This document shows positions 1-14,084 of a DNA stretch of 64,000 nt, piece by piece. Origin of the DNA: Shinella sp. CPCC 101442 (GTDB lineage Bacteria > Pseudomonadota > Alphaproteobacteria > Rhizobiales > Rhizobiaceae); assembly GCF_024704725.1 (NCBI RefSeq), contig NZ_JALIQS010000001.1, positions 496,001 through 560,000 on the forward strand. Reading direction: 5' to 3'. Made by a program: the position numbers and the translations under genes. How positions within the stretch are numbered: position 1 is the stretch's first letter; every line of letters begins with the position of its first letter. The notes under the pieces were generated by a model, which was not told where the DNA came from, made no database searches, and saw only the letters and a list, made by a program, of their open reading frames with translations.

Positions 1-133
1 CGATCGTTGCCAGGATGTCGCGGGTCTGGGCCACCGTGTCGGCGCCATCGCCGGTGACGCCGGCCGTGGTGACGACGCCGTTGACGACGACGGCTTCGCA
101 GAAGCGCTTGCCGGGCTTGATACGCTTGATCAT
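1..133 (-). CDS. RidA/YjgF-family protein, N-terminal fragment (cut by window start)
   Basis: The first 44 residues are visible, beginning MIKRIKPGKRFCEAVVVNG and continuing through GVTGDGADTVAQTRDIL. This fits the opening strand and helix of RidA-family imine/enamine deaminases, where the ligand and other substrates usually enter a trimeric cleft. An ATG with a GGGAG ribosome site 8 bases upstream fixes the start. The rest lies outside the window. It is the last visible gene of a run of co-directional arginine-catabolism genes and follows the racemase fusion by 22 bases. Established knowledge: Rid proteins hydrolyse imines released by FAD D-amino-acid dehydrogenases, including iminoarginine, so a role clearing the product of the neighbouring FAD enzyme is a reasonable inference. 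The family call rests on a short fragment. Confidence 0.7.
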   Translation of the reverse strand, partial: MIKRIKPGKRFCEAVVVNGVVTTAGVTGDGADTVAQTRDILATI

Positions 134-155: not shown

Positions 156-1943
156 TCAGAGAATGGTTTTGCCGAAGGCCGACAGGATGAAGTTGGCGCA
201 TTCCGCGCCGATCGGCGATGGCAGAGCGGCATCAATGCCGGAAATGCTGAGCGAGCGCAACTTGCCGCTGAGCGCCGCCATTTCCATCGCCGAATGGGTT
301 TCGCGCACCGTGATCCCGCCGATGCCGCCGCTCCAGCCGGACATGTCGGTCGCCGTCGGCGAATAGCAGAGATGGAAGCCGCGCGTACCGGCGGACGCGA
401 TCGCAATCGCCTCGCGCATCGCCTGGCGCAGCCCGACCGCATCGATTTCCGACATGGTGAAGCTGCGCATGCGCGACGCTTTCAGCGCCGACACCTCCTC
501 GGGTGCTGCATTGCGCAGGCCGATGAGCACGATGTTCTCAGGCGCGATGTGGGGCGGCAAGCAATCGAGCATGCGGCGTAGCACCGCGTTTTCCGGCGGC
601 GGCGCATCCGCATCGCCATCCGGCATCATCGCGGCATCGGAATCGATCCAGACGAGGCCAAGCGCATCGTGCCGTCGGCCGGACGCCTCCACATGGGGTA
701 GGATATCGCGCCGGCGCGCGCAAATGGAGAGCGCCAGGGCGTTTTCATCCAAGCCCCTTTCGAAGCCGAGATGCTGGATGCGTTCGGCGATGTTCTGCAC
801 GACCACGAGCGCACCGCCGATGGCGTCCGTCTCGATCGCATAGGTCCTTGTCTCACCCGTCTCGCGCACATCCCGCATCGGAACCTTCTCCACATATTCT
901 GACGTCATCACCGTCAGCAGCGCGCCGTAATTCATGCGAAAGCTGACATTCTCCCCCACAGCCAAGGGCGGGTCGGCCTCGGTGAGATCGAGCACCAGAT
1001 GGTCGCTGGAGGCGCCGAGCACGCGCACACCGCGCTGCGTCGGGATCAACCCCTCGGCGATGACGTCCTCCCGCCCGATATTGGCGATGCCGCGCAGCCG
1101 GTCGCCCTCGTCGATGAAAACAGGCGCATTGCCGAAGGCGTCGAGACCGGACAGGCCGATCGGCATGGAGGGTTTTATCTTCACCTCCAGGAGTTCGCCG
1201 GTCAGTTCGAAGACCTCGCGGTCGAGCGCGCCCCAGGGCTCGGTGAGAAAGGTTTCGCGCCCGCCTTGCAGGATCGCTTCGCCGACGCGCAGGTTGTTCA
1301 CCCCCGCCGGCATGCCGCCGGCCAGCAGCAGCGGCAGCGAGGAGGAATTGCCGCCGGAAACCCAGTCGAGCGGGCGGCCGGTGATGCTTTCCACCTTGTA
1401 GGCATGCCCGACGAGTTGTGTCAGGTTTTCCTGCGTCGGGATGATCGCGCCGAAGCAGGTGAGGTTGGTGCCGACGCCGGCGATGCGCACGCCGGGAAGC
1501 TCCATGACGGCCTCGACGGTCAGCACGAGATCGTTCGGCCAGATGCCCTCACGCAGGTCTCCGAGATCGATCATCAGGATGACGTCGTGCACGCGGCCAA
1601 GCCGCTCGGCGACGCGCGAAATCTCGCGCATCAATTGCAGCTCGGATTGCAGGCTGATGTCGACGGTACGCACCAGCTCTTCCACACGTGTCAGTGGCGG
1701 GCTGCGCAGCAACATGATCGGGCAATCGATGCCGGCATCGCGCAGGCGGCGGATATTCTCGAAGCGGGATTCCGCAATACCTGCCACACCGCCGCGCAGC
1801 ATGGCGCGCGCCACCTGCGGCATGCCGCAGGTGCCCTTCGTCACGCCGAACGGTGTAATGCCGGACTGACGGCAGAGATCCACGACGGTGCGGGCATTGT
1901 GCTCGATGCGGGCAAGATCGATAGAGATTTGCGGGTCGGACAT
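156..1943 (-). CDS. PLP racemase (alanine/ornithine racemase type) fused to a degenerate arginase-like domain
   Basis: This 595-residue protein has two parts. Residues 1-360 are a fold-III PLP racemase of the ornithine/alanine racemase group; the PLP lysine is expected at K36 in VTKGTCG. Residues about 370-595 align by eye with the C-terminal half of arginase: IGLRNAAPEEV (474-484), MSEIDAVGL (497-505), GGIGGITVRE (539-548). The metal ligands are mostly gone. The D-A-H-A-D motif reads D434-S-D436-A-A438, the second D-x-D pair reads S528-P-T530, and the GGDH motif reads GGAL. Usual racemases of this group are about 350-400 residues, so the C-terminal part is an added module. It sits 3 bases after the FAD dehydrogenase gene, in an arginine operon. 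Inference: an arginine or ornithine racemase whose pseudo-arginase domain binds arginine or regulates. Ornithine or lysine racemase activity is also possible. Confidence 0.8.
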   Translation of the reverse strand: MSDPQISIDLARIEHNARTVVDLCRQSGITPFGVTKGTCGMPQVARAMLRGGVAGIAESRFENIRRLRDAGIDCPIMLLRSPPLTRVEELVRTVDISLQSELQLMREISRVAERLGRVHDVILMIDLGDLREGIWPNDLVLTVEAVMELPGVRIAGVGTNLTCFGAIIPTQENLTQLVGHAYKVESITGRPLDWVSGGNSSSLPLLLAGGMPAGVNNLRVGEAILQGGRETFLTEPWGALDREVFELTGELLEVKIKPSMPIGLSGLDAFGNAPVFIDEGDRLRGIANIGREDVIAEGLIPTQRGVRVLGASSDHLVLDLTEADPPLAVGENVSFRMNYGALLTVMTSEYVEKVPMRDVRETGETRTYAIETDAIGGALVVVQNIAERIQHLGFERGLDENALALSICARRRDILPHVEASGRRHDALGLVWIDSDAAMMPDGDADAPPPENAVLRRMLDCLPPHIAPENIVLIGLRNAAPEEVSALKASRMRSFTMSEIDAVGLRQAMREAIAIASAGTRGFHLCYSPTATDMSGWSGGIGGITVRETHSAMEMAALSGKLRSLSISGIDAALPSPIGAECANFILSAFGKTIL

Positions 1944-1946
1944 GCA

Positions 1947-3194
1947 TCAGTTCCTATAAAGCAGGCCCGCGGTGTCGATCTCCGGCTTGCGGCCAGAAAC
2001 CAGATCGGCGACGAGTTTCCCCGAGCCGCAGGCCATCGTCCAGCCGACATGGCCGTGGCCGGTATCGAGGAAGAGGTTTTCGTAGCGCGCCTGCCCGTGC
2101 ACCGGCACCGAGCCCGGCATCATCGGGCGCAGGCCCGACCAGAGCACGGCTTTCGTTTCGTCGATCGCCCCGGGGAAAAGGTCGTGCGCGGTGCGGAACA
2201 TGTTCGCGAAGTCGGCGGGCTTGAAGCTGCGGTCGTAGCCGGCGAATTCGGCGGTGGAGGCAAGGCGCAGGCGATTGCCGAGGCGCGAATAGGCGATCAG
2301 CCGGTCCTCGTCGACGCCGCCCATGGTCGGCCCCTTGTCCGCATCGATCGGCAGGGTCGCGGTATAGCCCTTCACGGGATAGACCGGAACATCGATGCCG
2401 ATCTTGCGCGCCAGCAGCGCGCTTTCCGGGCCAAGCGACAGCACCACGGCATCGCAGGAAACAGGCCCCTTGTCCGTCAGCACGGCCTTGACCCGCCCAC
2501 CCTGGACATCGAGGCCGGTAACCGTCGTGCCGAAACGGAAATCGACGCCGTGGCGCATGCGGGCCTGCGCGGCGAGGCTGCGGGTGAAAAGCGAGGAATC
2601 CCCCGTCTGGTCCATTGAGGAATAGACGCCGCCGGCGAGCTGGTGTTTAACACCGGCAAGACCCGGCTCCAGCACCGCTAGCCGCTCGCGGTCCACCACT
2701 TCGATAGCGAGCCCCCGGTCGGCGATGTACTGCATGTGTTTTACACCGGCATCCATGCTTTGCTGCGAGCGGTAGAAATAGAGGATGCCCTTGCGCCGTT
2801 CATCATAGGATATGCCGGTCTCTTCCTGGATCGCATTAATGCACTGGCGCGCATAAAATGCGAGGCGGAGCTTCACCTCGGTATTTGCGTTGGCGCGCGA
2901 CTGCGTGCACTGCATGAGGAAACGCAGGCACCAGGAAAGGAATTGCGGATCGAGGCTGAACCGCACCTTGATGCCGAGATCGGAGCGGAACAGCGATTTC
3001 ATAAAGGTGGTGAGTGCTGTCGGCGAAGCCCAGGCGGTGGAATCGCCCGGCGAGACGAGGCCCGCATTGCTCTGGCTGGTGCCGCGCGCCACGTCCTCGT
3101 GGCGCTCCAGCACGGTCACGTCATGGCCATCCTTCGACAGATACCACGCTGCCGCCGTGCCGACGACGCCGGCCCCCAGAACGACTACTTTCAT
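1947..3194 (-). CDS. FAD-dependent D-amino-acid dehydrogenase (DadA type), probable D-arginine dehydrogenase
   Basis: This 415-residue protein starts with a Rossmann FAD motif, VLGAGVVGTAAAWYL, preceded only by MKVV. It has the DAO-family tail DTGHGHVGWTMACGSGK near residues 375-390, which closes the flavin site in DadA-like enzymes. Length matches DadA (about 410-430). A GAGGGGAG ribosome site stands 4 bases before the ATG. No signal peptide or membrane segment is seen; DadA proteins are peripheral on the inner membrane and pass electrons to quinones. Specificity cannot be read from sequence. The adjacent racemase, 2-ketoarginine decarboxylase and guanidinobutyrase make D-arginine the best inferred substrate, giving iminoarginine that hydrolyses to 2-ketoarginine. 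Generic D-alanine dehydrogenase is the main alternative. Confidence 0.85.
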   Translation of the reverse strand: MKVVVLGAGVVGTAAAWYLSKDGHDVTVLERHEDVARGTSQSNAGLVSPGDSTAWASPTALTTFMKSLFRSDLGIKVRFSLDPQFLSWCLRFLMQCTQSRANANTEVKLRLAFYARQCINAIQEETGISYDERRKGILYFYRSQQSMDAGVKHMQYIADRGLAIEVVDRERLAVLEPGLAGVKHQLAGGVYSSMDQTGDSSLFTRSLAAQARMRHGVDFRFGTTVTGLDVQGGRVKAVLTDKGPVSCDAVVLSLGPESALLARKIGIDVPVYPVKGYTATLPIDADKGPTMGGVDEDRLIAYSRLGNRLRLASTAEFAGYDRSFKPADFANMFRTAHDLFPGAIDETKAVLWSGLRPMMPGSVPVHGQARYENLFLDTGHGHVGWTMACGSGKLVADLVSGRKPEIDTAGLLYRN

Positions 3195-3258: not shown

Positions 3259-4278
3259 TTAACTGCTCACCGCACCCTGCTTGAAAGTCGGTGCGAAGCC
3301 GCCGGAATCCCCGTCGTTGAAGCGGATAATGCGCACCTCGTCCTGGAATTCGGCGCAGGATTGCCGCCAGACCGAGCCCGGCCAGACGAGCTCCACCGAG
3401 GCATCGAGCGGCCGATAGACGGCTGTGTAGAGCGTGCCGTAGCCGCGTCCATAGGATGTCTGGTAGACCGGCGGGCGAAGAAATCCGGAAAGAACGCGCT
3501 CGACATCCGCCGACCCGGCCAGCGACTTTTCCACCGCCGCCTCGCGCTCGACCGACTTGGTGGTCTCGGCATGGCGCGCCCATTCGACGCCGTGCTGGTG
3601 GTTGGTGCTGACGCGCCGTTCCACCACCTCGGCCGGGCGATCCGGATTGACATAGACGGTCGCGTGCTTGCCCTGCCGGTCGATGACGGCGATCGAATAG
3701 GACATGTGCACGGGAATGCGCTGGAGCATGGCGACGGCCTCCGCCGTGGTGCTGGCGAATTCCAGCACGTAGCGCAGCACGACGGGAATGCCGAACCCCT
3801 GCCCCGCGGCGGTGCGCCCGCCGAAGGAGAGTGAGACCGAAAGCCCGTCCTCGTTGATGCCGTCGAGCACGCCCCAGAGGCAATCGACCACCGCGACGAC
3901 CCGTTTCCCGTTGAAGCGTGAAGCCAGCCATGTGCCCTCGAGAAGGCGCGGGCTGTAGTCGTAGTTGCGGATCAGCGCCGGCTCTACGCCGGTCAGGATC
4001 GCCTGCGAGCAGCCGCCGACATAGAAGGGCGGGCACCACATGGAGAGGAAGCGCGCCTCCAGATCCCCGTCGCCGGCCGTCGCGACAATCGCCTCATAGG
4101 TAGGCAGCAGTTCCGGCATGTGCTTTCGCAGCGCCTTGAGGCTCATGAAATAGGTCGGGCGCGAGCGAACCCCGTCGCGCACGAACCAGCGGCTATAGGC
4201 GTGCCAGTGACGATCGAACACCCGGCGCCATTTGGGGCCGGGCATGTCTTCATCGATGGCTTCGAACTGGAGGTCCAT
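3259..4278 (-). CDS. C45-family autoproteolytic Ntn acyltransferase/hydrolase
   Basis: This 339-residue protein resembles the acyl-CoA:6-aminopenicillanate acyltransferase (peptidase C45) family. The likely self-cleavage site and N-terminal nucleophile is Cys90 in YVGGCSQAIL, followed by IRNYDYSP, the family's R-N-x-D motif, and by GVLDGINEDGLSVSLSFGGR, matching the conserved G-x-N-x-x-G-L segment. A propeptide of about 90 residues before the Cys is normal for the family. There is no signal peptide, so it is predicted cytoplasmic. It lies 6 bases after the ATP-grasp gene and 64 bases before the FAD dehydrogenase, so all are probably cotranscribed. The substrate is unknown. Hydrolysis or transfer of an amide bond involving arginine or a derivative is only an inference from context. 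Confidence 0.75.
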   Translation of the reverse strand: MDLQFEAIDEDMPGPKWRRVFDRHWHAYSRWFVRDGVRSRPTYFMSLKALRKHMPELLPTYEAIVATAGDGDLEARFLSMWCPPFYVGGCSQAILTGVEPALIRNYDYSPRLLEGTWLASRFNGKRVVAVVDCLWGVLDGINEDGLSVSLSFGGRTAAGQGFGIPVVLRYVLEFASTTAEAVAMLQRIPVHMSYSIAVIDRQGKHATVYVNPDRPAEVVERRVSTNHQHGVEWARHAETTKSVEREAAVEKSLAGSADVERVLSGFLRPPVYQTSYGRGYGTLYTAVYRPLDASVELVWPGSVWRQSCAEFQDEVRIIRFNDGDSGGFAPTFKQGAVSS

Positions 4279-4284
4279 GATGTC

Positions 4285-5739
4285 CTACAGGATCTTGAAC
4301 GAACCGGCTTCCGGCGCGTCATCGCGCTGGATTTCCGTCAGCGGCTTGCTGGCATATAGGCGCTTGATGCCCTTGATCCAGTTGCTGGCACGCTCGTTCA
4401 GTTCGAATTCGTCGTCCATCACCCGACCGCGCGTGATGAGAATGCCCAGATCGGCGCCCTCGTAGCGGTAGTCGCCGGGACCGGTGATGCGCAGGAAGAA
4501 GGCCTCCTGCTCGCTTTCGATCGCCTGGCGGTGATAATCGAAGCGATCATAGGACACGCTGCCATCCGGCGCCATGCGATAGATGCCGGTCGCCGGCGCA
4601 TGAGTGACGATGTCGACGAGGTCTTCGGTCGACTTGATGACCACCTGCGACCAGGAATCGATGAACTCTTTCCGCGCCCAACGGTTGTTCAACTCCTCGA
4701 CGTCGATCTTGTACTCGATGCCGGAGAACTCCATCAGGTGGAACAGGAAGAGCGGCGCATCGGCATAGGCGAAGGCAGCGTGGTTGGTCATCGAGCTGGC
4801 GCCGCAGATGCGCGGGTTCAATTCGCCGAGATAGACCTCGTTGTCCTCGACGTCGATCAGGAAGTCGAGATCGAAGTAACCGCGATAGCCCTCTTCGCGC
4901 AGCTGGTTGCCGAAGCGGTAGGCCATGTCGCGCGCCTTGGCACGGATCTTTTCGGAGAAGGCGCCGGGGAAGATTTCGTTACCGCACCAGCCGCCCTTGT
5001 AGGGCGTCAACGCCGGCTGGCCGACGACTTCCGTCAGAAGCGGGCCGACGAGCGTGCCGGAACCGGTCGTGCAGGCCTCCATCGTCGCGCCGCGGCACTT
5101 GATGCGCTTCATGATCTTCACTTCGTCTTCCGCTGAAATCTCCGCGGCGTGACGGTTGTAGTCCTCTTCGCTGGCGATGAAGAACGTCGTGTGGCCGCTG
5201 TCGCCGAAGGCGGTCTGCACCACGAGGTCCTTGCCGATGCCGGCCTTTTTCGCCGAGGACAGCAGTTCCTCATAGGTGCGCGCGGGAGCGAGCGTGTTGG
5301 GCACGGAAGGCACGTCCGCCTTGTTGCCGATACGCACGGTCTCCATCTTGTTGTCGCAGCGCTGGCGCAGTTTTGCCCGGGGGAACCAGATCTCGATGCC
5401 GAGTTCGTCGCAGATTTCCTCGGTCGATTCATCGAACATCAGGAAGGTCGCAACCGCACGGCCGCCGCGCTTGGTGATGTAGTCGATCACTTCCTTGTGC
5501 TGCAGCAGGTAATTGTTGATGTCCTCGATGCTCTCGAATTCGGCATGGGGGATTTCGGATGGGACGAAGACGTTCGGATGGCGGCCGTCGAAGCAATCGA
5601 TATAGCTGACGAACTTGAAGTTCCGCACCCATTCGTCGATGCCGATCAGGTTGAAGTTCGTCGCGGAGATGAAATAGATCGGGCGCTCGTTGCGGTGCAT
5701 GACGACGCGCAGGTCGGCCACGTTGCGAATGGTTTCCAT
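4285..5739 (-). CDS. ATP-grasp ligase (biotin-carboxylase-like fold), substrate unknown
   Basis: The protein is 484 residues from the preferred ATG (METIRNVADL), which has GAGGGG 6 bases upstream. An ATG at 5823 in the same frame would add 28 residues, half of them lysine, and is weaker because only a G-run abuts it. The ATP-grasp core is visible: DLVVQTAFGDSGHTTFF (phosphate-binding strand and glycine loop), YRGYFDLDFLID, and GELNPRICGASSMT with the acidic and Asn metal ligands. No biotin-carboxyl carrier domain is attached, so carboxylase activity is unlikely. Carboxylate-amine ligation is the common job of stand-alone members. It precedes the C45 hydrolase gene by 6 bases, which suggests a paired bond-forming/bond-breaking module inside the arginine operon. 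The C-terminal 120 residues were not recognised. Confidence 0.75.
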   Translation of the reverse strand: METIRNVADLRVVMHRNERPIYFISATNFNLIGIDEWVRNFKFVSYIDCFDGRHPNVFVPSEIPHAEFESIEDINNYLLQHKEVIDYITKRGGRAVATFLMFDESTEEICDELGIEIWFPRAKLRQRCDNKMETVRIGNKADVPSVPNTLAPARTYEELLSSAKKAGIGKDLVVQTAFGDSGHTTFFIASEEDYNRHAAEISAEDEVKIMKRIKCRGATMEACTTGSGTLVGPLLTEVVGQPALTPYKGGWCGNEIFPGAFSEKIRAKARDMAYRFGNQLREEGYRGYFDLDFLIDVEDNEVYLGELNPRICGASSMTNHAAFAYADAPLFLFHLMEFSGIEYKIDVEELNNRWARKEFIDSWSQVVIKSTEDLVDIVTHAPATGIYRMAPDGSVSYDRFDYHRQAIESEQEAFFLRITGPGDYRYEGADLGILITRGRVMDDEFELNERASNWIKGIKRLYASKPLTEIQRDDAPEAGSFKIL

Positions 5740-5845
5740 GATGTACCCCTCATTTTTCTTCGAGTGCTTCTTGCGCTTGTCGCGCTTCTTCTCGTTCTTC
5801 CGCTCTTTCTTCTTTTTCGACATGCCCCCCGGTCCGTCGTTTGGG

Positions 5846-7288
5846 TTATCGTTTCAGGCGTGACGTGACGTGCTTCACCTCAAGGTAGGAGGACATGCCC
5901 CACGGCCCGAGCTCACGCCCGATGCCACTCGCCTTGAAGCCGCCCCAGGACGTCTGAACGAAAATTGCCTGCGGGCTGTTGATCCAGACATGACCGGCTT
6001 CGATGGCATTGGCCACGCGGTTCGCCTGCGCCTCGTCGCCGCTGACGACGGTAGCGACGAGGCCGAAATCGCAGTCGTTGGCGAGCGCGATGGCCTCTTC
6101 TTCCGTTTCAAAGGTGCGGATGCAGAGCACCGGCCCGAAAATCTCCTCGCGCCACAGAGCGCTGGTCGTAGGCACATCGCCAAAGATTGTCGGTTCGATA
6201 AACCAGCCGTCCAGACCGGCAGGCTTGCCGCCGCCAGTGAGCAAGCTCAAGCCCTCGGCCTTGCCGCGCTCGATATAGGCCAACACCTTGTCGTGCTGCG
6301 CCTTCATGGTGATCGGGCCGATTTGCGTCCCCTCATCCAAGGGATCACCGGGCTTCAGCGCCTGGCTTCCAGCGATTATGGCGTCTATTAGCTTTAGCGC
6401 AATTGATTTTTCCACCAGAAGGCGAGAGGTGGCCGAGCACATCTGGCCGGCATTGAAGAAGATACCGCCGAGCACGCATTCCACCGCCTCGTCGAAATCC
6501 GCATTCGCGAAAACGACGATGGGCGACTTGCCGCCGAGTTCGAGGCTCACCGATTTGACGCCCGGGGCGCCTGCCGCCATGACGCGTGCGCCGACGGCGT
6601 TCGAGCCGGTGAAGGAGATTTTTGCGACATCCGGATGCGCCGTCATCGGCGTGCCGACGCGCTCGCCGGTGCCGGTAACGATGTTGAGCACACCGGGCGG
6701 CAGGCCGATTTCTTCGGCGATGGCGCCCAGTTCCAGTTCCACAATGGGCGTGATTTCCGACGGTTTCAGCACCACCGTGCAGCCAGCGGCAAGTGCGGGA
6801 GCGACCTTCCAGGACGTCGTCACCAGCGGAAAATTCCATGGCACGATGAGGCTTGCAACGCCTGCCGGTTCCTGCCGCAGCCGGGCGTGAAACCCATCGT
6901 CAGGCAAGGCGACATCCGCATCCTGCCGGTTCTGAAGGGCGATGGCTTGTTCGGCGTAATAGGCGAAGCAGGCGGCCGCGTCCGCCATGTCGATGCGCGC
7001 CTCGCCGAGTGGCTTGCCGTTGTTGCGGGAGGAAAGGCGAGCCAGTTCCTCGGCGCGGTCTTGAAGCTTTTCAGCGATGGCGGCGAGGTAGCGGGCGCGC
7101 TCACGGCCACCGGCGTCGCGCCAGGCCGGAAAGGCAGCCTTCGCCGCCGCCACAGCCTTGTCTACATCCGCTGGACCGCCTGCGGCGACCTCATGATAGG
7201 CGGTGCCGCGATAGGGCTCGAAGACCGGGATGCGGCCGGGCTCTACAGGCTCTTGCCATTTTCCGTCGATGAAGAGCTGGTTTCGCAT
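5846..7288 (-). CDS. NAD(P)-dependent aldehyde dehydrogenase, probable 4-guanidinobutyraldehyde dehydrogenase
   Basis: This is a complete 480-residue class 1/2-type aldehyde dehydrogenase. The landmarks are VPWNFP (Asn152), LKPSE (Lys175), ISFTGSN near 225-230 for the coenzyme loop, LELGGKSP with general base Glu250, and FFNAGQMCSA with catalytic Cys284. The C-terminal KASGIGRELG motif is also present. It reads like betaine/gamma-aminobutyraldehyde-type enzymes. The gene lies 7 bases after the 2-ketoarginine decarboxylase gene, whose expected product is 4-guanidinobutyraldehyde. Oxidation of that aldehyde to 4-guanidinobutyrate, the substrate of the guanidinobutyrase two genes upstream, is the inferred role. 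Similar aldehydes such as gamma-aminobutyraldehyde may also be accepted. Confidence 0.88.
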   Translation of the reverse strand: MRNQLFIDGKWQEPVEPGRIPVFEPYRGTAYHEVAAGGPADVDKAVAAAKAAFPAWRDAGGRERARYLAAIAEKLQDRAEELARLSSRNNGKPLGEARIDMADAAACFAYYAEQAIALQNRQDADVALPDDGFHARLRQEPAGVASLIVPWNFPLVTTSWKVAPALAAGCTVVLKPSEITPIVELELGAIAEEIGLPPGVLNIVTGTGERVGTPMTAHPDVAKISFTGSNAVGARVMAAGAPGVKSVSLELGGKSPIVVFANADFDEAVECVLGGIFFNAGQMCSATSRLLVEKSIALKLIDAIIAGSQALKPGDPLDEGTQIGPITMKAQHDKVLAYIERGKAEGLSLLTGGGKPAGLDGWFIEPTIFGDVPTTSALWREEIFGPVLCIRTFETEEEAIALANDCDFGLVATVVSGDEAQANRVANAIEAGHVWINSPQAIFVQTSWGGFKASGIGRELGPWGMSSYLEVKHVTSRLKR

Positions 7289-7295
7289 CGCCGCC

Positions 7296-8918
7296 TCACG
7301 CCGCCAGGGTTTTTGCGAGCGTTGAGCCGGCCTGTATTTCGATGACAGTGGGCACGTTGCGGGTGGCGGAGGCTTTCAGTTCGCTTTCCAGCTCGGCAAG
7401 CGAGGTGGGACGGGAGGCTTCGCAGCCGAGTGCCTTGGCAAGGCCGACGAAGTCGGGCGTGAAGATGTCGACGCCGATCTGCGGGATGTCGCGCTCGGCC
7501 ATGAAGGCCTTGATCTCACCGTAGCTGGTGTTGTTCCAGATGACCACGGCGGTGGCGATGCCCGCTTCCACCGCGCTTGCCAGTTCCTGCACGGAGAATT
7601 GCAGGCCGCCGTCGCCGATCAGGCAGACGGAGGGGCGGTCGGGTGCGCCGAGTTTGGCGCCGAAGGCGGCGGGCAGGCCGTAGCCGAGCGTGCCGTAGCC
7701 GGTGGAGGAGTTGAAGAAGGAGCGGACCTGCGGTGCCTGGTAGAACTGGTTGACGGCATAGACCGGCTCCGTCTGGTCGCCCGCAACGGTAGCGTCGGGC
7801 AGAGCTTTGGTGATGACCTCCATCAGCTTGCCATGGGTGCGGCAGGCGGGCCACAGCCCGGTCTCCACTTTTTCCCGCACGGCTTTTGCCCGCGCGGCAC
7901 CCTCCCCGGCAGTCCTGCCCTCGCCGAGCGCGGCGCTGAGACTTGTCGCGGCAAGCTTCGCGTCGGCGGCGATCGGCACGTCTGCGCGCAGCCCGGTGAC
8001 GATCTGCGCCGGGTCGATGTCGATGCGAATCAGCGGGCCGCCGAAGGAAAGCGGTTTTGGCTCGGGATACATTTCCGTCTCGCCGAACTCCGTGCCGATG
8101 GCGAGGATCGCATCGCTTGTCGCAAGTTCGTCGAGCAGCGGCTGCATACTGAGATTGCCGGTCATGATGCGCGGGTCGCCGGGCTTCAGGATGCCGCGGC
8201 CGTTGATCGTCATGAAGACCGGTGCGTCGAGCTTTTCGGCAATCGCGGCGATTTCGGCCGCCGCATCGGCAGCACCGCCGCCGGCGATGATCAGCGGGCG
8301 TTTGGCCGCCTTGAGGATCGTCGCCGCCTTGGCGATGCTGGCGGGATCGGCCGCAGCACGGCCGGGCAGCGGCCAGGCGTCCGTCGAAAGATGCCCGGCC
8401 TGCGCGACGATGACGTCGAGCGGGATTTCGATATGAACGGGGCGCGGGCGTGCCGAATTGAACACGGTGAAGGCACGCGCCATCACTTCAGGCAGCTGCG
8501 CGGGATCGAGCAGCGTGTGGCTGAAGGCACTGACGCCGGCCACCAGGTTGCGCTGCGAGGGCAGTTCGTGCAGGCGGCCCTGGCCCATGGCGAGCTCATT
8601 GCGGGCATTGACCGCGGAGATGACCAGCATCGGCACGGAATCCGCATAGGCCTGGCCCATGGCGGTGGCGATATTGGTCATGCCCGGACCGGTGACGATG
8701 AAGCAGACACCCGGCTTGCCGGTCACGCGCGCATAGCCGTCGGCCATGAAGCCCGCACCCTGTTCGTGGCGCGGCGTGACGTGGCGGATCTTCGTGGCCG
8801 GCAGGCCGCGATAGAGTTCGACCGTATGCACGCCCGGAATGCCGAAGATCAGTTCGACGCCGTAGGATTCCAGGAGACGGACGAGATATTCGCCTGTTGT
8901 AAGACGGGTGTCTGCCAT
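7296..8918 (-). CDS. aruI: Thiamine-diphosphate decarboxylase, probable 5-guanidino-2-oxopentanoate (2-ketoarginine) decarboxylase
   Basis: From the chosen ATG (MADTRLTTGEYLVRLLESYG) the protein has 540 residues, the usual size of the acetolactate-synthase/AruI group. The N-terminal PYR domain has FGIPGVHTVELYRGL and the ThDP-activating Glu52 in PRHEQGAGFMADGYAR. The C-terminal PP domain carries IGDGGLQFSVQEL followed by IWNNTSYGE, the GDG-NN ThDP/Mg motif. An upstream in-frame start would run into the guanidinobutyrase gene, while AGAGGCG precedes the chosen ATG. The stop of guanidinobutyrase is 4 bases upstream. AruI decarboxylates 2-ketoarginine to 4-guanidinobutyraldehyde in the arginine transaminase/dehydrogenase pathway, and the neighbours supply the steps before and after. 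A generic acetolactate-synthase-like enzyme is the alternative. No small regulatory subunit is encoded nearby. Confidence 0.82.
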   Translation of the reverse strand: MADTRLTTGEYLVRLLESYGVELIFGIPGVHTVELYRGLPATKIRHVTPRHEQGAGFMADGYARVTGKPGVCFIVTGPGMTNIATAMGQAYADSVPMLVISAVNARNELAMGQGRLHELPSQRNLVAGVSAFSHTLLDPAQLPEVMARAFTVFNSARPRPVHIEIPLDVIVAQAGHLSTDAWPLPGRAAADPASIAKAATILKAAKRPLIIAGGGAADAAAEIAAIAEKLDAPVFMTINGRGILKPGDPRIMTGNLSMQPLLDELATSDAILAIGTEFGETEMYPEPKPLSFGGPLIRIDIDPAQIVTGLRADVPIAADAKLAATSLSAALGEGRTAGEGAARAKAVREKVETGLWPACRTHGKLMEVITKALPDATVAGDQTEPVYAVNQFYQAPQVRSFFNSSTGYGTLGYGLPAAFGAKLGAPDRPSVCLIGDGGLQFSVQELASAVEAGIATAVVIWNNTSYGEIKAFMAERDIPQIGVDIFTPDFVGLAKALGCEASRPTSLAELESELKASATRNVPTVIEIQAGSTLAKTLAA

Positions 8919-8922
8919 TGTT

Positions 8923-9876
8923 TTATCGCCTCTGCACGCCCGGAAGGACGCAAAGCATTTCAAAGAGAAGGTTCGCTGCCGTGATCGCCGTGTTGCCTGA
9001 GGGATCATAGGGCGGAGAGACTTCGACGAGGTCGCAGCCGACGAGGTTCAGACCCCAGCAGCCGCGGATGATTTCCAGTGCCTGGATCGTGTTGAGACCG
9101 GCGATCTCAGGCGTGCCGGTGCCCGGTGCAATCGACGGATCGAGGCTGTCGATGTCGAAGGTGAGGTAGACCGGGCGGTCGCCCATCTGCGCGCGGACTT
9201 CCGCCATCAGCGGCGTCAGCGACTTGTGCCAGCACTCCTCCACCTGCACGACGCGGAAACCTTGTTCGCGCGACCAGTCGAAATCGTCGGCGGCGTAGCC
9301 CGTGCCGCGCACGCCGATCTGGATGCAGCGCTTGGTATCGAGCACACCGGCCTCGACCGCACGGCGGAACGGCGTGCCATGAGCGATCGGCTCGCCGAAC
9401 ATGTGCTCGTTGATATCGGCATGGGCGTCGACATGGATGAGGCCGACAGGGCCGTGTTTTTCCGCCATGGCGCGCAAGATCGGGTAGGACAGGGTGTGGT
9501 CGCCGCCGAGCGTCAGCGGCGTGCAGTCATGTTTGATGATATCGCGATAGGCATCGGTGATGATGTCGATGCATTTCGGCAGGTTGAAGGTGTCTATCGC
9601 CACGTCGCCGATATCGGCCACCTGCAGGCTTTCGAAGGGCGCTGCCCGTGTTGCCATGTTGTAAGGGCGGATCATGCAGCTCTCGGTGCGGATCTGGCGC
9701 GGCCCGAAGCGCGTGCCCGGCCGGTTCGACGTGCCGATATCCATCGGGATGCCGACGAAGCAGGCGTCGAGCCCTTCCGCAGTCGGCTGCGTTGGCAAGC
9801 GCATCATGGTTGCGGGGCCGCCGAAACGCGGCATTTCGTTGCCGCCGAGCGGCTGGTTGAACGTCTTGGTCGTCAT
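8923..9876 (-). CDS. gbuA: 4-guanidinobutyrase (agmatinase/arginase superfamily)
   Basis: The protein has 317 residues from MTTKTFNQPLGGNEMPRFGG; GGAGG lies 7 bases before this ATG and rules out the longer in-frame start. All manganese ligands are present: His127 in GGDHTLS, Asp150, His152 and Asp154 in HVDAHADIN, and Asp241/Asp243 in TFDIDSLDPS, followed by APGTGTPE. The opening (QPLGGNEMPRFGG..TMMRLP) and closing (LFEMLCVLPG) segments match what I recall of Pseudomonas GbuA closely, rather than the shorter SpeB agmatinases. The reaction is 4-guanidinobutyrate + water -> 4-aminobutyrate + urea. It is the first gene of a tight run (gbuA, decarboxylase, aldehyde dehydrogenase); a 97-base gap separates it from the Usp gene and probably holds its promoter, although none stands out. 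Confidence 0.9.
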   Translation of the reverse strand: MTTKTFNQPLGGNEMPRFGGPATMMRLPTQPTAEGLDACFVGIPMDIGTSNRPGTRFGPRQIRTESCMIRPYNMATRAAPFESLQVADIGDVAIDTFNLPKCIDIITDAYRDIIKHDCTPLTLGGDHTLSYPILRAMAEKHGPVGLIHVDAHADINEHMFGEPIAHGTPFRRAVEAGVLDTKRCIQIGVRGTGYAADDFDWSREQGFRVVQVEECWHKSLTPLMAEVRAQMGDRPVYLTFDIDSLDPSIAPGTGTPEIAGLNTIQALEIIRGCWGLNLVGCDLVEVSPPYDPSGNTAITAANLLFEMLCVLPGVQRR

Positions 9877-9973: not shown

Positions 9974-10846
9974 TTATTCTTCGGCACGTGGGAGGATGAG
10001 GCAGGGCACCGGCGCGTTGTGCACGATCTTGCGGGCATTCGAGCCGAGAAAGACCCGCATCAGCGGCCCCAGCTTGCTGGAACCGAGAACGAGCAGCTCG
10101 CCCTCCTCCCAGGCGAGCGACTCGAAAGCCGCCTTCCAGCTCGGGCCATCGGCGATCTCGGCGGAAAGCCCAGCCTGTCCGGCAAGCAGGGTGGTCTGCG
10201 CATCCCGTGCCTGCTCGCGCAGCACATTGGAGACGAAGTGTTCCGCGTCATAGCCGGCACCCGTCGGATACATCTGCTTGTCGCGCACCACGAAGGTCAC
10301 GAGACGAAGCGGCACCGAGTACTCCCGTGCGAGTGCCGCACTGCGGGCGATGATGCCAGGCGCGGAAGACGAACCGGAATAGGCGGCGCTGAGCCGGCGA
10401 ATACGGCTCTCGGGACCGGCCGAATAGCCATGCGGCGCCACCGCGATCGGCAAATGTGCGGAGCGCAAGAGTTCCGTCGTCACGCCGCCTTCGCCGAAGC
10501 GACCGAATGGAGCCTCGCGCGCCGAACCGAGCACGAGGCAATCGGCGCCGATCTCGGAGGCGGTCCTGGTGAGACCTTCGCGGGCCGAGGAGGCGGAAAC
10601 GGCGAGGAACTCCGCGGTTACGTCGTCGGGAAGCGATGCCTTCGCCTCGGCCTGCACCGCGGCGGTGTGTCGGGCGAGGAAGCTGCCATATTCGCCGTCG
10701 ACACGCGCCGGCGAAGGATGGCCCCAGGTGTCGGGCGTCACCGTGCAGGCGACGAGCGATGCCTTGCAGGACCGGGCGAGCACCGCGCCGAGCGCCAGTG
10801 CCTCCTGCCCGCCCTGGTCGGCGGATAGACCGACGAGGATCTTCAT
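9974..10846 (-). CDS. Universal stress protein (tandem UspA domains)
   Basis: This 290-residue protein has two UspA folds. The first is about 1-140 and begins MKILVGLSADQGGQEAL; the second is about 145-290 and ends LVLGSSKLGPLMRVFLGSNARKIVHNAPVPCLIL. The end fits the UspA ATP-binding pattern G-x-x-G-x9-G-S, here LGSSKLG...LGSNARKIV. The ATG overlaps the permease stop as ATGA, so the two are translationally coupled. Usp proteins paired with amino-acid permeases are common; a role in modulating the transporter or sensing energy state is inference. It is cytoplasmic, with no signal or membrane segment. Confidence 0.85.
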   Translation of the reverse strand: MKILVGLSADQGGQEALALGAVLARSCKASLVACTVTPDTWGHPSPARVDGEYGSFLARHTAAVQAEAKASLPDDVTAEFLAVSASSAREGLTRTASEIGADCLVLGSAREAPFGRFGEGGVTTELLRSAHLPIAVAPHGYSAGPESRIRRLSAAYSGSSSAPGIIARSAALAREYSVPLRLVTFVVRDKQMYPTGAGYDAEHFVSNVLREQARDAQTTLLAGQAGLSAEIADGPSWKAAFESLAWEEGELLVLGSSKLGPLMRVFLGSNARKIVHNAPVPCLILPRAEE

Positions 10847-12336
10847 TCTGCCGCCTCGCCGAGACCTGCCGGCTTTTCGAGCCGCGAGTTGCGGGCGGAG
10901 TAACCGAAATAGACGAGTGCGGCGATCGCCACCCAGACGCCGGTAATGGCATAGACCATCCAGCTGAGCTTGAAGATGAGGTACAGGCAGGCGACGATGC
11001 TGAGCACCGGCAAAACCGGGCCGAACGGCACGCGGTAGCCGCGCGGCATGTCGGGCTGCGTGTAGCGCAGGATCAGCACGCCGGCCGAGACGACGGTGAA
11101 GGCGGTGAGCGTGCCCATGCTCGTCAGGTCCCAGAGCAGGCCCGACGGCACGAAGGCGGCGATCAGCGACACGAAAACCGCGACGATGATGGTGCAGGCG
11201 ACCGGCGTCATGCTGCGCGGATCGACCTTGTGGAAGATCGACGGCAGCAGGCCGTCGCGCGACACCGCAAAGAGGATGCGCGACTGGCCGTAGAGCACGA
11301 TGAGCGTGACCGAGAAGATCGAGATCACCGCGCCGGCCGCCAGCAGGTTCGCCGGCCAGGCGGCACCTGTCAGGTTCTGCAGGATCGTGGCAAGGCCCGC
11401 CTCCTGCCCGTCGAAGGCGTCCGCCGGCTGTACGCCGAGGGCGGCCAGCGCGACCAGGATGTAAAAGCCGGTGACGATGACGAGCGCAGAGATGATGGCG
11501 ATCGGCAGATTGCGCCGCGGATTGACCACCTCCTCGCCCGCCGTCGAGACGGCATCGAGGCCGACGAAGGTGAAGAAGATCGAGGCCGCCGCCGCCTGCA
11601 CGCCGCCAAAACCGCTCTCGTTGAAGAAGGGCATGAAATTCGCGCTGTTGAAGGCGCTGCCGGCGATCACGATGAAGAGGGTTAGCACGGCGAGCTTGAC
11701 CATCACCATGATGGCATTGGCGCGGGCCGATTCCTTGGCGCCGCGCAAAAGCAGGATGCAGCAGAGCATGACAAGAATGACGGCCGGCAGATTGATGAGG
11801 CCGGAGCCTTCCGCGAAGAAGGCCATGGCGAAGGGATGGTCGCCGTCGACGACGGTGATCGGCCCCTTGATCATCCAGCCGGGCAACACGATGCCGGTGA
11901 TGTTGAAGAGCAGCTTTTCGACATATTCGGCCCAGCCGACCGCTACCGCGGCGGCGGAAATTCCGTATTCCAGAACGAGGCAGGCGGCGACGAAGAAGGC
12001 GATGCCCTCGCCAAGCGTCGCATAGGCATAGGAGTAGGAAGAGCCCGAGACCGGGATCATCGAACTCATCTCGGCATAGCAGAGCGCCGACAGGCCCGCC
12101 GCGACCGCTGCAATGATGAAGGAGAGCACGACCGCGGGGCCGGCCACCGGCACCTGCTCGCTCAGCACGAAGAAGATACCCGTGCCGATCGTCGCCCCCA
12201 CGCCGAACATGATCAGCTGGAACAGCGTGATCGAGCGTCCGAGATGGCCATGCCCGTCGCCGGCACCCGAGGTGTCCGCAATCAGCCGGTCGACCGGCTT
12301 CTTGCGTGTGATTTGTTCCAGGATAGTTGACGCCAT
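10843..12336 (-). CDS. APC-superfamily amino acid permease (cationic amino acid transporter type)
   Basis: The protein has 497 residues from the ATG at MASTILEQITRKK; a longer start 33 bases upstream is less likely because a G-rich ribosome site (GGGGGGAACG) precedes this one. About twelve membrane spans are visible. The first, FQLIMFGVGATIGTGIFFVL, carries the G-A-x-I-G-x-G-I-F substrate loop of the APC family. FVGLDAVSTAGEEVVNPRRN is the family's cytoplasmic E-E-x-x-N-P motif typical of CAT-type carriers. It is coupled to the Usp gene by an ATGA overlap and lies upstream of the arginine genes. Uptake of arginine or another basic amino acid is inferred from family and context; neutral amino acids remain possible. 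Confidence 0.85.
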   Translation of the reverse strand: MASTILEQITRKKPVDRLIADTSGAGDGHGHLGRSITLFQLIMFGVGATIGTGIFFVLSEQVPVAGPAVVLSFIIAAVAAGLSALCYAEMSSMIPVSGSSYSYAYATLGEGIAFFVAACLVLEYGISAAAVAVGWAEYVEKLLFNITGIVLPGWMIKGPITVVDGDHPFAMAFFAEGSGLINLPAVILVMLCCILLLRGAKESARANAIMVMVKLAVLTLFIVIAGSAFNSANFMPFFNESGFGGVQAAAASIFFTFVGLDAVSTAGEEVVNPRRNLPIAIISALVIVTGFYILVALAALGVQPADAFDGQEAGLATILQNLTGAAWPANLLAAGAVISIFSVTLIVLYGQSRILFAVSRDGLLPSIFHKVDPRSMTPVACTIIVAVFVSLIAAFVPSGLLWDLTSMGTLTAFTVVSAGVLILRYTQPDMPRGYRVPFGPVLPVLSIVACLYLIFKLSWMVYAITGVWVAIAALVYFGYSARNSRLEKPAGLGEAAE

Positions 12337-12513
12337 CGTTCCCCCCGATGTCTCCCCATATGCAATCACTGTAGCGTCGGGTCCGGCAAAGGTGCTGCCG
12401 TATTTCTGTCATTTTCCGACACTTGCTGCTGAGCGCAGCACCCTTCTCGAAAGTTCTTGTCGCAAGCGTCAAGGGGGAGCCGGGAGGGGCGAAACGGTGA
12501 CCCGGAGGCCAGC

Positions 12514-12611: not shown

Positions 12612-13154
12612 ATGAAGGATGAAGACGGGTCGATCCGGCTCGATCAGATCGATCTGCGTATTCTGGCATGTCTTCAGGCCAATGCGCGCATGACGAACCA
12701 GGAGCTGGCCGATGCCGTGGGCCTTTCGCCCAGCCCCTGCCTGCAGCGGGTGAAGCGGCTCGAAAAGGCCGGCGTCATCACCAATTACCATGCCATTATC
12801 GACCTTGCGAAGGTCTGCCGCCATGTTGACGTCATCGCCGCGGTGACGCTCAACAGCCATGGGCTGGAGGATTTCCAGATCTTCGAAACGATGGTCGAAG
12901 AGATGCGCTACGTGGTGGAATGCACCAAGGTCAGCGGGCCGATCGATTATCTCGTGCGCTTCGTCTGCCCCGATATCGCCTCCTATCAGATGCTGTCGGA
13001 CGAGCTTTTGCGGCTCGGCCCCAAGATCGGCAATCTTTCGAGCTACATCGTGCTCAAGTCGAGCAAGCCCTATCGGGGCGTGGCCTTCGACGATCTCGTT
13101 TCCCCGACGCCGCGCGGCGTGCCGACCCGGCTCGCCCCCCGCACCGGCAAATAA
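12612..13154 (+). CDS. Lrp/AsnC-family transcriptional regulator
   Basis: This 180-residue protein has an N-terminal winged helix-turn-helix, LDQIDLRILACLQANARMTN (about 10-29), then QELADAVGLSPSPCLQRVKRLEKAG. A C-terminal RAM ligand-binding domain (about 75-155) follows. The arrangement is the standard Lrp/AsnC one; the length is slightly long because of a proline- and arginine-rich tail (SPTPRGVPTRLAPRTGK). It is transcribed away from the permease/arginine genes and sits 18 bases before the nitrilase-family gene. By position it is a good candidate to sense arginine or a related amino acid and to control both directions. That is inference; no operator was proven. Confidence 0.9.
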   Translation: MKDEDGSIRLDQIDLRILACLQANARMTNQELADAVGLSPSPCLQRVKRLEKAGVITNYHAIIDLAKVCRHVDVIAAVTLNSHGLEDFQIFETMVEEMRYVVECTKVSGPIDYLVRFVCPDIASYQMLSDELLRLGPKIGNLSSYIVLKSSKPYRGVAFDDLVSPTPRGVPTRLAPRTGK

Positions 13155-13172
13155 TTTTCACAGAGATAAATC

Positions 13173-14084
13173 ATGTCAGGCTCCCTCTCCGAAGCAAACG
13201 CATTGCCGTACGCCACCGGTCGGCGGGACAATTCCCGCTTCATGATATCAGGCATCCAGATGTCCGTGCCGATCGGCGGTCGCAACATCGCGGCGATGAG
13301 TATCCAGATTGAAAAGACCATGGCGCTCTTCCCCGGCACGGACATGATCGTCTTTTCCGAGCTTGCCATGCATGGACCGCTGCACGCCTGTATGGCGGAA
13401 GATCCGACATTGGACGAGGCCGCCTTCCAGGCGCTCGCGGCAAAGCACCGGGTCTGGATCATTCCCGGCACCTATTTCGTGCATCGCGAAGGCCGGACCT
13501 ACAACCATTCCATCGTCATCAATCCCTGCGGCGAGATCGTCGGGCGTTACGACAAGATGTTCCCCTTCATGCCCTTCGAGGCGGGCGTGGCGGGTGGCAG
13601 CGAGTTCCTGATCTTCGACGTGCCCGATATCGGCCGCTTCGGCCTGTCCATCTGCTACGACATCTGGTTTCCGGAGACGACGCGGACGCTGACATCCGCA
13701 GGCGTCGAAGTCCTGATCCACCCCGTCCTGACCGGCACGACCGACCGAAAAGCCGAACTTGCCATCGTTCAGGCGACGGCTGCCATGTTCTCCTGCTACG
13801 TGGTGGACGTGAACGGGCTGGACGCCGGCGGCGTCGGCCGCTCGCTTGTTGCGGATCCGACTGGCAATGTCGTGCATCAGTGTGGTCAGGTGACGGAAAT
13901 CTTTCCCATCAACGTCGATCTCGGCCTCGTGCGGCAGGTGCGCGCGGAAGGTGCCAATGGCCTCGGGCAGGTGCTGAAATCCTACCGGGATCGCAACGTT
14001 GCCTTCACGACCTATGACAACGGCGGGGCATCGGCCTATCTCGACAGCCTCGGCCCGCTCGCACAGATGCCAAAGCGGCGATAA
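13173..14084 (+). CDS. Carbon-nitrogen hydrolase (nitrilase superfamily amidase)
   Basis: This 303-residue protein has the complete Glu-Lys-Cys triad: Glu63 in FSELAMHG, Lys128 in GRYDKMFPF and Cys161 in LSICYDIWFPE. The length and the triad spacing match aliphatic amidase/carbamoylase-type members rather than NAD synthetase fusions. AGAGATAAATC precedes the ATG. It is probably cotranscribed with the Lrp gene 18 bases upstream. The substrate is unknown. Because the neighbouring genes degrade guanidino compounds, an amide such as 4-guanidinobutyramide or a carbamoyl amine would fit, but nothing in the sequence proves it. Confidence 0.85.
   Translation: MSGSLSEANALPYATGRRDNSRFMISGIQMSVPIGGRNIAAMSIQIEKTMALFPGTDMIVFSELAMHGPLHACMAEDPTLDEAAFQALAAKHRVWIIPGTYFVHREGRTYNHSIVINPCGEIVGRYDKMFPFMPFEAGVAGGSEFLIFDVPDIGRFGLSICYDIWFPETTRTLTSAGVEVLIHPVLTGTTDRKAELAIVQATAAMFSCYVVDVNGLDAGGVGRSLVADPTGNVVHQCGQVTEIFPINVDLGLVRQVRAEGANGLGQVLKSYRDRNVAFTTYDNGGASAYLDSLGPLAQMPKRR

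Follow-up and report, generated by a model that had tools for sequence, protein, structure and literature searches.

Why should a racemase carry an arginase-like domain stripped of almost every metal ligand, and what could such a domain do in an operon of arginine metabolism? The question is posed by a fusion gene in a 64,000-nt stretch of DNA from Shinella sp. CPCC 101442 (GCF_024704725.1, NZ_JALIQS010000001.1, 496,001–560,000, forward strand), here called the window. The fusion and its neighbours are as follows.

1..133, continuing past the window, reverse strand: Rid-family gene, candidate iminoarginine deaminase, directly downstream of the fusion (PF01042, 87.8 bits; cut-off 27.3)
156..1943, reverse strand: racemase/dead-arginase fusion gene, 595 amino acids (ATG at 1943, stop at 156–158)
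876..1943, reverse strand: N-domain, residues 1–356, Orr-type fold III PLP racemase by profile and structure matches
1836..1838, reverse strand: codon of K36, presumed PLP lysine in the sequence VTK, its role taken from family knowledge
159..848, reverse strand: C-domain, residues 366–595, arginase fold without a metal site by profile, predicted structure and alignment
1947..3194, reverse strand: D-amino acid dehydrogenase, 3 bases from the fusion (NF001933, 458.8 bits; cut-off 383)
3259..4278, reverse strand: C45-family autoproteolytic acyltransferase/hydrolase, by profile
4285..5823, reverse strand: ATP-grasp protein of the PRK06524 family, by profile
5846..7288, reverse strand: aldehyde dehydrogenase, candidate 4-guanidinobutyraldehyde dehydrogenase (no NCBIfam model above cut-off among the 25 listed)
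7296..8918, reverse strand: 5-guanidino-2-oxopentanoate decarboxylase, AruI type (NF005712, 735 bits; cut-off 500; start chosen by hand)
8923..9876, reverse strand: guanidinobutyrase-type ureohydrolase (514.5 bits to the P. aeruginosa guanidinobutyrase 3nio, next 302.0; start chosen by hand)
10843..12369, reverse strand: amino acid permease (PF13520, 182 bits; cut-off 27)

The N-domain matches the ornithine racemase model NF040742 (Orr) with 390.7 bits over 2–350 of 351, below that model's cut-off of 480, and Ala_racemase_N with 100.9 bits (cut-off 24.1); alanine racemase structures align to the predicted model over residues 1–357. It is a fold III PLP racemase by these matches, with K36, which on family knowledge we take to be the PLP-bearing lysine, in a VTK motif; VTK or VSK is present in 184 of the 186 fusions described below. 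The C-domain reaches 46.4 bits against the arginase model TIGR01229, below the curated cut-off of 227.6, and its predicted structure and structure matches have the three-layer ureohydrolase/arginase fold. The prediction was made for a monomer, and its pTM of 0.62 leaves the placement of the two domains relative to each other unsure. All 50 Foldseek matches listed were racemase-fold or related PLP chains; the arginase structure matches to the fusion model came from a second look at Foldseek's own matches. The first-pass annotation had described a PLP racemase with its lysine, fused to a retained arginase fold without a metal site in an arginine operon. The fold proves complete, and profiles, predicted structure, structural matches and ligand alignment agree with that description, as do neighbours that include an AruI-type decarboxylase and a guanidinobutyrase-type ureohydrolase.

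The loss of the metal site was read from an alignment with 25 stand-alone arginases (P0050 and 24 others), which places the ligand positions as follows.

711..713, reverse strand: R411, replacing the Mn ligand H101 (GGDH to CARR)
642..644, reverse strand: D434, equivalent to D124, the sole Mn ligand retained
630..638, reverse strand: D436 and A438, replacing H126 and D128
354..362, reverse strand: S528 and T530, replacing D232 and D234

One of the six Mn ligands is thus kept, and the substrate residues N130, H141 and E277 are also missing. The changes from H126 to D436, D128 to A438, D232 to S528 and D234 to T530, and the retention of D434, had all been called correctly from the sequence. The change of GGDH to GGAL had not: GGAL sits at residues 376–379 and aligns elsewhere, and its candidacy as the GGDH counterpart is ruled out by alignment with P0050, the intermediate fusions and the 24 further arginases. 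On alignment and predicted structure, the C-domain is an arginase-family pseudoenzyme, with the fold of an arginase and its metal ligands lost. A working arginase domain in the window protein is ruled out by the ligand loss and the TIGR01229 score.

Racemase–arginase fusions, which the first-pass annotation had proposed seeking, occur well beyond Shinella. Protein searches with the window protein listed 49 matches for the C-part and the best 120 of 4,235 for the racemase part, a further protein search with a deltaproteobacterial fusion (L082) listed 66, and a scan of a genome collection retained the best 80 of 91 loci. In 77 of these best 80, racemase and arginase matches lie in one frame, counting two loci with part of the racemase in a second frame (L050 and L051) and one cut by a contig end (L048); in L039 and L075, each at a contig end, the arginase part alone is present, and the remaining locus, L083, encodes an unfused arginase whose ligands are intact. 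The hosts of the best 80 loci are mostly Hyphomicrobiales, together with a Burkholderiaceae bin, Thiothrix, Thiofilum, one Actinomadura and one deltaproteobacterium. Among 297 genomes from the window's order, counting the window's own, 15 matched at E 1e-60 or better, 7 over the whole fusion and 8 over the racemase part alone (39–42% identity). With 7 whole copies per 297 genomes and this breadth of taxa, the fusion is widespread but patchy. Its confinement to this operon or clade is ruled out by the protein and genome searches.

The metal site decays by degrees across this family. A ligand census covered 186 C-domains, many of them metagenomic and related rather than independent; they comprise 182 of 196 stored proteins (14 rows were excluded, namely 13 fragments or chimeras and the arginase reference P0050) and the loci L076, L078, L080 and L081. 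All six ligands are present in 12, four or five in another 12, and three or fewer in 162, which we call dead. Homologues with intact ligands had been named as a possible sign of misalignment; the 12 found among the 186 bear the alignment out, and their existence indicates that the C-domain descends from an arginase. Eleven of these 12 lack E277, N130 and H141, and P0185 alone has them. With 256.2 bits, P0185 passes the arginase cut-off of 227.6; it has T for S137 and D for N139. A fusion with a near-complete arginase is represented by this one cluster of 3 sequences. It lies on a 4,036-base contig, and the first 60 or so residues of its predicted frame match an IS3 transposase; no P0185-like fusion was present among the loci examined from two genome searches of the phylum of L082. 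The other 11 six-ligand fusions (P0146–P0161) have a metal site without the usual substrate residues and may accept a different guanidino or ureide compound.

Two types can be told apart among the dead domains: 123 retain D124, none of them with D232, and 39 lack D124, 36 of these keeping D232. Their common ancestor must have had both residues, and the ligands were lost by at least two routes. A quick tree was built from 80 C-domains after the ligand and catalytic columns had been masked, and was rooted on 12 stand-alone arginases. All 68 fusions form one clade in it (SH-aLRT 99) in which P0185 branches first, and the composition of P0185 and two long branches were flagged. The tree has two dead clades, one of 16 rows (99) and one of 37 rows that includes the window protein (99); the fork joining the metal-bearing fusions to the latter has a support of 81. 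One fusion event followed by stepwise decay would be the simple reading of these sequences, and it hangs on the root and on the single near-complete fusion. The family forms a graded arginase series on one kind of racemase, from cut-off-passing through metal-only to metal-free, a setting in which roles of an arginase domain other than arginine hydrolysis can be examined.

To see what the dead domains retain, we took the 62 invariant columns, in which at least 24 of the 25 stand-alone arginases agree, and scored those kept in at least 95% of the 162 dead domains. Twelve are kept, none of them one of the six ligands: G475, R477, E483, D501, G504, G542, G543, R547, E548, E554, S588 and G591. Four of these residues belong to the following sites.

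441..443, reverse strand: D501, equivalent to rat D204 and B. caldovelox D199, an interface residue kept in 161 of 162 dead domains
300..305, reverse strand: R547–E548, presumably rat R255–E256, kept in 161 of 162
282..284, reverse strand: E554, equivalent to rat E262 and B. caldovelox E256, the partner of Arg308, kept in 161 of 162

The equivalence to B. caldovelox D199 and E256 was counted by hand on the alignment. The sole exception is the same row, P0121, for each of the four residues, and all four are also present in 24 of 24 metal-bearing fusions and 25 of 25 stand-alone arginases. The guanidinobutyrase of the operon lacks them, so the fold as such does not explain their presence. The chance of all four falling within the kept 12 is 0.0009, or 0.009 inside the C-terminal half, as post hoc figures for columns that were named after the alignment had shown their conservation and that are not independent.

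The behaviour of this contact has been described for catalytic arginases. According to the available portion of PMC7925462, mammalian Arg308 bonds Glu262 and, in rat, Asp204 of the next subunit; the Arg308Ala mutant is monomeric, and guanidinium restores its trimers and cooperativity. The same portion describes free L-arginine occupying the same interface region in the B. caldovelox enzyme, which is without Arg308, and a report by Garcia and co-workers states, in its title, that an allosteric site in that arginase permits activation by arginine. Monomeric human arginase 1 loses nearly 85% of its activity in the accessible text of PMC8322407, and loss of the multimer hardly altered the kinetics of the B. 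caldovelox arginase as cited in the accessible text of PMC11271267. The equivalents of Asp204 and Glu262 (D199 and E256 in B. caldovelox) in these bacterial, human and rat arginases are kept here, with the difference that those arginases are catalytic. An interface arginine site is hard to separate from catalysis there; in the dead fusion domains, the residues of the site have outlasted those of catalysis. The arginine-responsive trimer contact is, as judged from the alignment, the most specific trait still common to the C-domain and living arginases, and by analogy the C-domain may bind arginine at its interface.

Because the C-domain keeps the residues of an arginase interface site that can hold free arginine, an arginine-binding or allosteric role is the best fit that we found. 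It is the part of the earlier proposal of an arginine-binding, channelling or allosteric module that survives; channelling through the old active site is disfavoured by the loss of N130, H141 and E277. The reading that we favour, at somewhat less than even confidence, builds on the fusion, the fold, the ligand loss, the retained interface residues, the purifying selection and the operon, and from these we infer the substrate, the trimer, the binding of arginine and the coupling to the racemase. The fusion would racemise basic amino acids, with arginine as the most likely substrate, and would feed D-arginine to the adjacent D-amino acid dehydrogenase. Its C-domain would descend from an arginase fused to an Orr-type racemase and, with catalysis lost, would have been retained as an arginine-tuned assembly module. 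Free L-arginine could sit at the preserved charges of the trimer interface, as in bacterial arginase, and stabilise or tune the complex. Racemases of fold III are usually dimeric; if its tail trimerises, such a dimer would build up into a hexamer, and arginine would be reported by how the hexamer assembles or how active it is. Several points count against this reading: simple packing may account for the retention of the four interface residues, the C-domain changes faster in sequence than the racemase domain, the decarboxylase of the fusobacterial Oda fusion sufficed without its arginase domain, multimer loss barely mattered in B. caldovelox, and AruI is near few of the loci.

The closest competitor, which we regard as a real but doubtful possibility, is that the dead arginase merely trimerises or stabilises the racemase, with no arginine bound or sensed. 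The same retained interface residues speak for it too, and the accessible part of PMC11271267 offers a precedent in metal-free MetCb, which acts as a protein binder of its catalytic partner. The C termini bear on the choice. An Arg follows the last invariant glycine in 88 of the 162 dead domains, 57 of which end G-K-R-I-L, presumably close to the position of mammalian Arg308. In those domains the interface site might be filled in cis, which slightly lowers the arginine-tuned module and raises the plain scaffold. The window protein ends G-K-T-I-L, with no Arg there, and in such proteins a scaffold role alone leaves the strict Asp/Glu pair unexplained.

That the substrate is arginine is suggested by the neighbouring genes, which would together encode the route L-Arg to D-Arg to iminoarginine to 2-ketoarginine to 4-guanidinobutyraldehyde to 4-guanidinobutyrate to GABA and urea. 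Rid subfamilies 2 and 3, not RidA or Rid1, deaminate iminoarginine from D-arginine dehydrogenase, according to the portion of PMC5619798 available. A dehydrogenase gene lies directly upstream on the same strand in 71 of the 75 fusion loci with at least 1.3 kb of upstream sequence, the exceptions being L019, L079, L081 and L082. AruI occurs within the flanks of 13 of the best 80 loci, 10 of them also with the ureohydrolase. Within this branch nearly every fusion therefore has the dehydrogenase as a partner, which does not hold for the operon as a whole. An AruI-like gene (47–49% identity) is encoded elsewhere in each of five alphaproteobacterial genomes checked that have no AruI nearby, and the Shinella genome of the window also encodes a separate arginase above cut-off.

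Other genes of the region have possible roles of their own. The ATP-grasp and C45-family genes co-occur in 11 of the 13 AruI loci, which hints at a ligase and a hydrolase working as a pair, perhaps to shield an intermediate. On the upstream side of the ureohydrolase gene, positions 9974–12369 of the reverse strand hold the permease and a gene with two universal-stress-protein stretches; divergently, on the forward strand at 12612–14084, lie genes for an Lrp/AsnC-type regulator and a carbon–nitrogen hydrolase, possibly a regulator and a nitrogen-release enzyme.

On the separate matter of substrate, ornithine is the unlikely but credible alternative, through L-Orn to D-Orn to 5-amino-2-oxopentanoate to 4-aminobutanal to GABA. 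The racemase is Orr-like, and in the accessible part of PMC7268258 the AruI homologue of S. meliloti, IlvB1, prefers 5-amino-oxopentanoate, on which it is sevenfold more active. Since IlvB1 favours the amino over the guanidino keto acid, and the substrate here is deduced from neighbours, ornithine keeps a place; a guanidinobutyrase-type enzyme in the operon is expected only for the guanidino route, and the AruI model matches above its cut-off.

Fusions with more of the metal site occur in ornithine-pathway surroundings. In the phylum of L082, the six-ligand fusion P0149 as query matched 6 of 297 genomes at E 1e-100 or better (five whole fusions and one racemase only), and a repeat with P0185 matched 8 of 395 at E 1e-90. 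Neighbours scoring above cut-off are 2,4-diaminopentanoate dehydrogenase, OrtA, OrtB and the D-ornithine aminomutase OraE at L113, OrtA, OrtB and OraE at L112, and OrtB and OraE at L114. In all three a GlmL-type gene, just under the Or-4 cut-off, precedes the fusion; the short frame in the place of OraS in L113 matched no family. These neighbours belong to the oxidative ornithine pathway, the one described for C. difficile in the available text of PMC8803604. The OrtA and OrtB genes beside these fusions are those of 2-amino-4-oxopentanoate thiolase. Six ligands are kept in L112, five in L114 and four in L113 and L115, and all four have lost N130, H141 and E277, which counts against a simple story of a working arginase–ornithine racemase in such clusters. 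The L082 fusion adjoins a MutL-family gene. L151, of the dead type, adjoins an alanine racemase-like gene, with no OraE within its 4,980 bases.

A bolder history, which we hold to be less likely than not, is also conceivable. A bifunctional arginase–ornithine racemase of anaerobic arginine/ornithine fermentation may have been taken over for a proteobacterial D-arginine pathway, where arginase activity would divert the substrate; catalysis would have been lost more than once, with the free-arginine site kept as an arginine-gated assembly switch for the racemase. In the alphaproteobacterial operon an active arginase would drain the substrate, a conceivable reason for its loss.

A remodelled old pocket that binds arginine, ornithine or another ligand, and so channels or regulates, seems to us improbable. 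N130 and H141 are lost in 162 of 162 dead domains and E277 in 161, and the loop there is shortened in the alignment rows displayed. Other parts of the pocket persist: R180 (R477 in the window protein) is kept in 161 of 162 and E186 (E483), which we take to be part of the arginase substrate rim, in 158, and an acidic residue occupies the H141 position, where the alignment is gappy, in 89 of the 123 dead domains that keep D124. With E186 and R180 kept, part of the old rim may matter, and a second site would be conceivable beside the interface.

Selection has maintained both domains. Nei–Gojobori omega was computed for the 36 pairs formed by the window gene and eight relatives (L004–L011), and ranges from 0.099 to 0.264 for residues 366–595 and from 0.023 to 0.144 for residues 1–355, with the C-domain above the racemase in 35 of the 36 pairs. 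The C-domain is under purifying selection, less strict than that on the racemase. That it is functionless debris on its way out, as its faster evolution and the proteins P0057 and P0098 (only 53 and 90 residues after the hinge, the latter on a 270,558-base contig) might suggest, is very hard to reconcile with an omega of about 0.10–0.26 in all 36 pairs and with its occurrence across alpha-, beta-, gamma- and deltaproteobacterial loci and one actinomycete.

Dead arginases that are fused to another enzyme, or act alongside one, are already known. In the accessible portions of PMC8503589 and PMC12826042, the fusobacterial ornithine decarboxylase/arginase Oda has a C-terminal arginase domain with two metal-binding residues replaced, is present in all sequenced F. 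nucleatum genomes and is described as found only in Fusobacteriaceae; its decarboxylase domain alone is active and restores growth. To judge from those portions, Oda resembles the window protein in joining a PLP enzyme, one that acts in ornithine metabolism, to a C-terminal arginase domain that has lost metal ligands. It differs in its aspartate aminotransferase-fold decarboxylase, its two replaced ligands and its pathway: the fusions here do not have an Oda-type N terminus, the N-domain being of the alanine racemase fold, and the window protein has lost five of six. MetCb, of the metformin hydrolase MetCaCb, is a metal-free arginase-family subunit that binds its catalytic partner, according to the accessible part of PMC11271267; like the window domain it is an arginase-family pseudoenzyme with five of six metal residues changed, but on that account it is a separate subunit pairing with an active paralogue, whereas the window domain is fused to a racemase. 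A Trypanosoma brucei arginase-like protein likewise lacks the Mn cluster, as the title of Hai 2015 and passages citing it indicate. Orr of C. difficile and its relatives is matched by the window racemase domain over its whole length, and the deltaproteobacterial-type fusions adjoin OraE genes. The window racemase nevertheless scores below the Orr cut-off, and plasmid-collection matches (H4–H7, 37–42% identity) cover the racemase part alone. We know of no fusion of the T. brucei protein to a PLP enzyme.

The first-pass annotation knew of no description of such a fusion. A literature search, with most subscription papers outside its reach, likewise retrieved none of a racemase–arginase fusion, nor of the racemase partner, the graded series or the kept interface residues; novelty does not extend to the general design, since the fusion of a PLP ornithine decarboxylase to a dead arginase is published. 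NCBI entries for several of the fusions are named alanine racemase, which is misleading given the operon; the present analysis corrects the annotation of these database copies.
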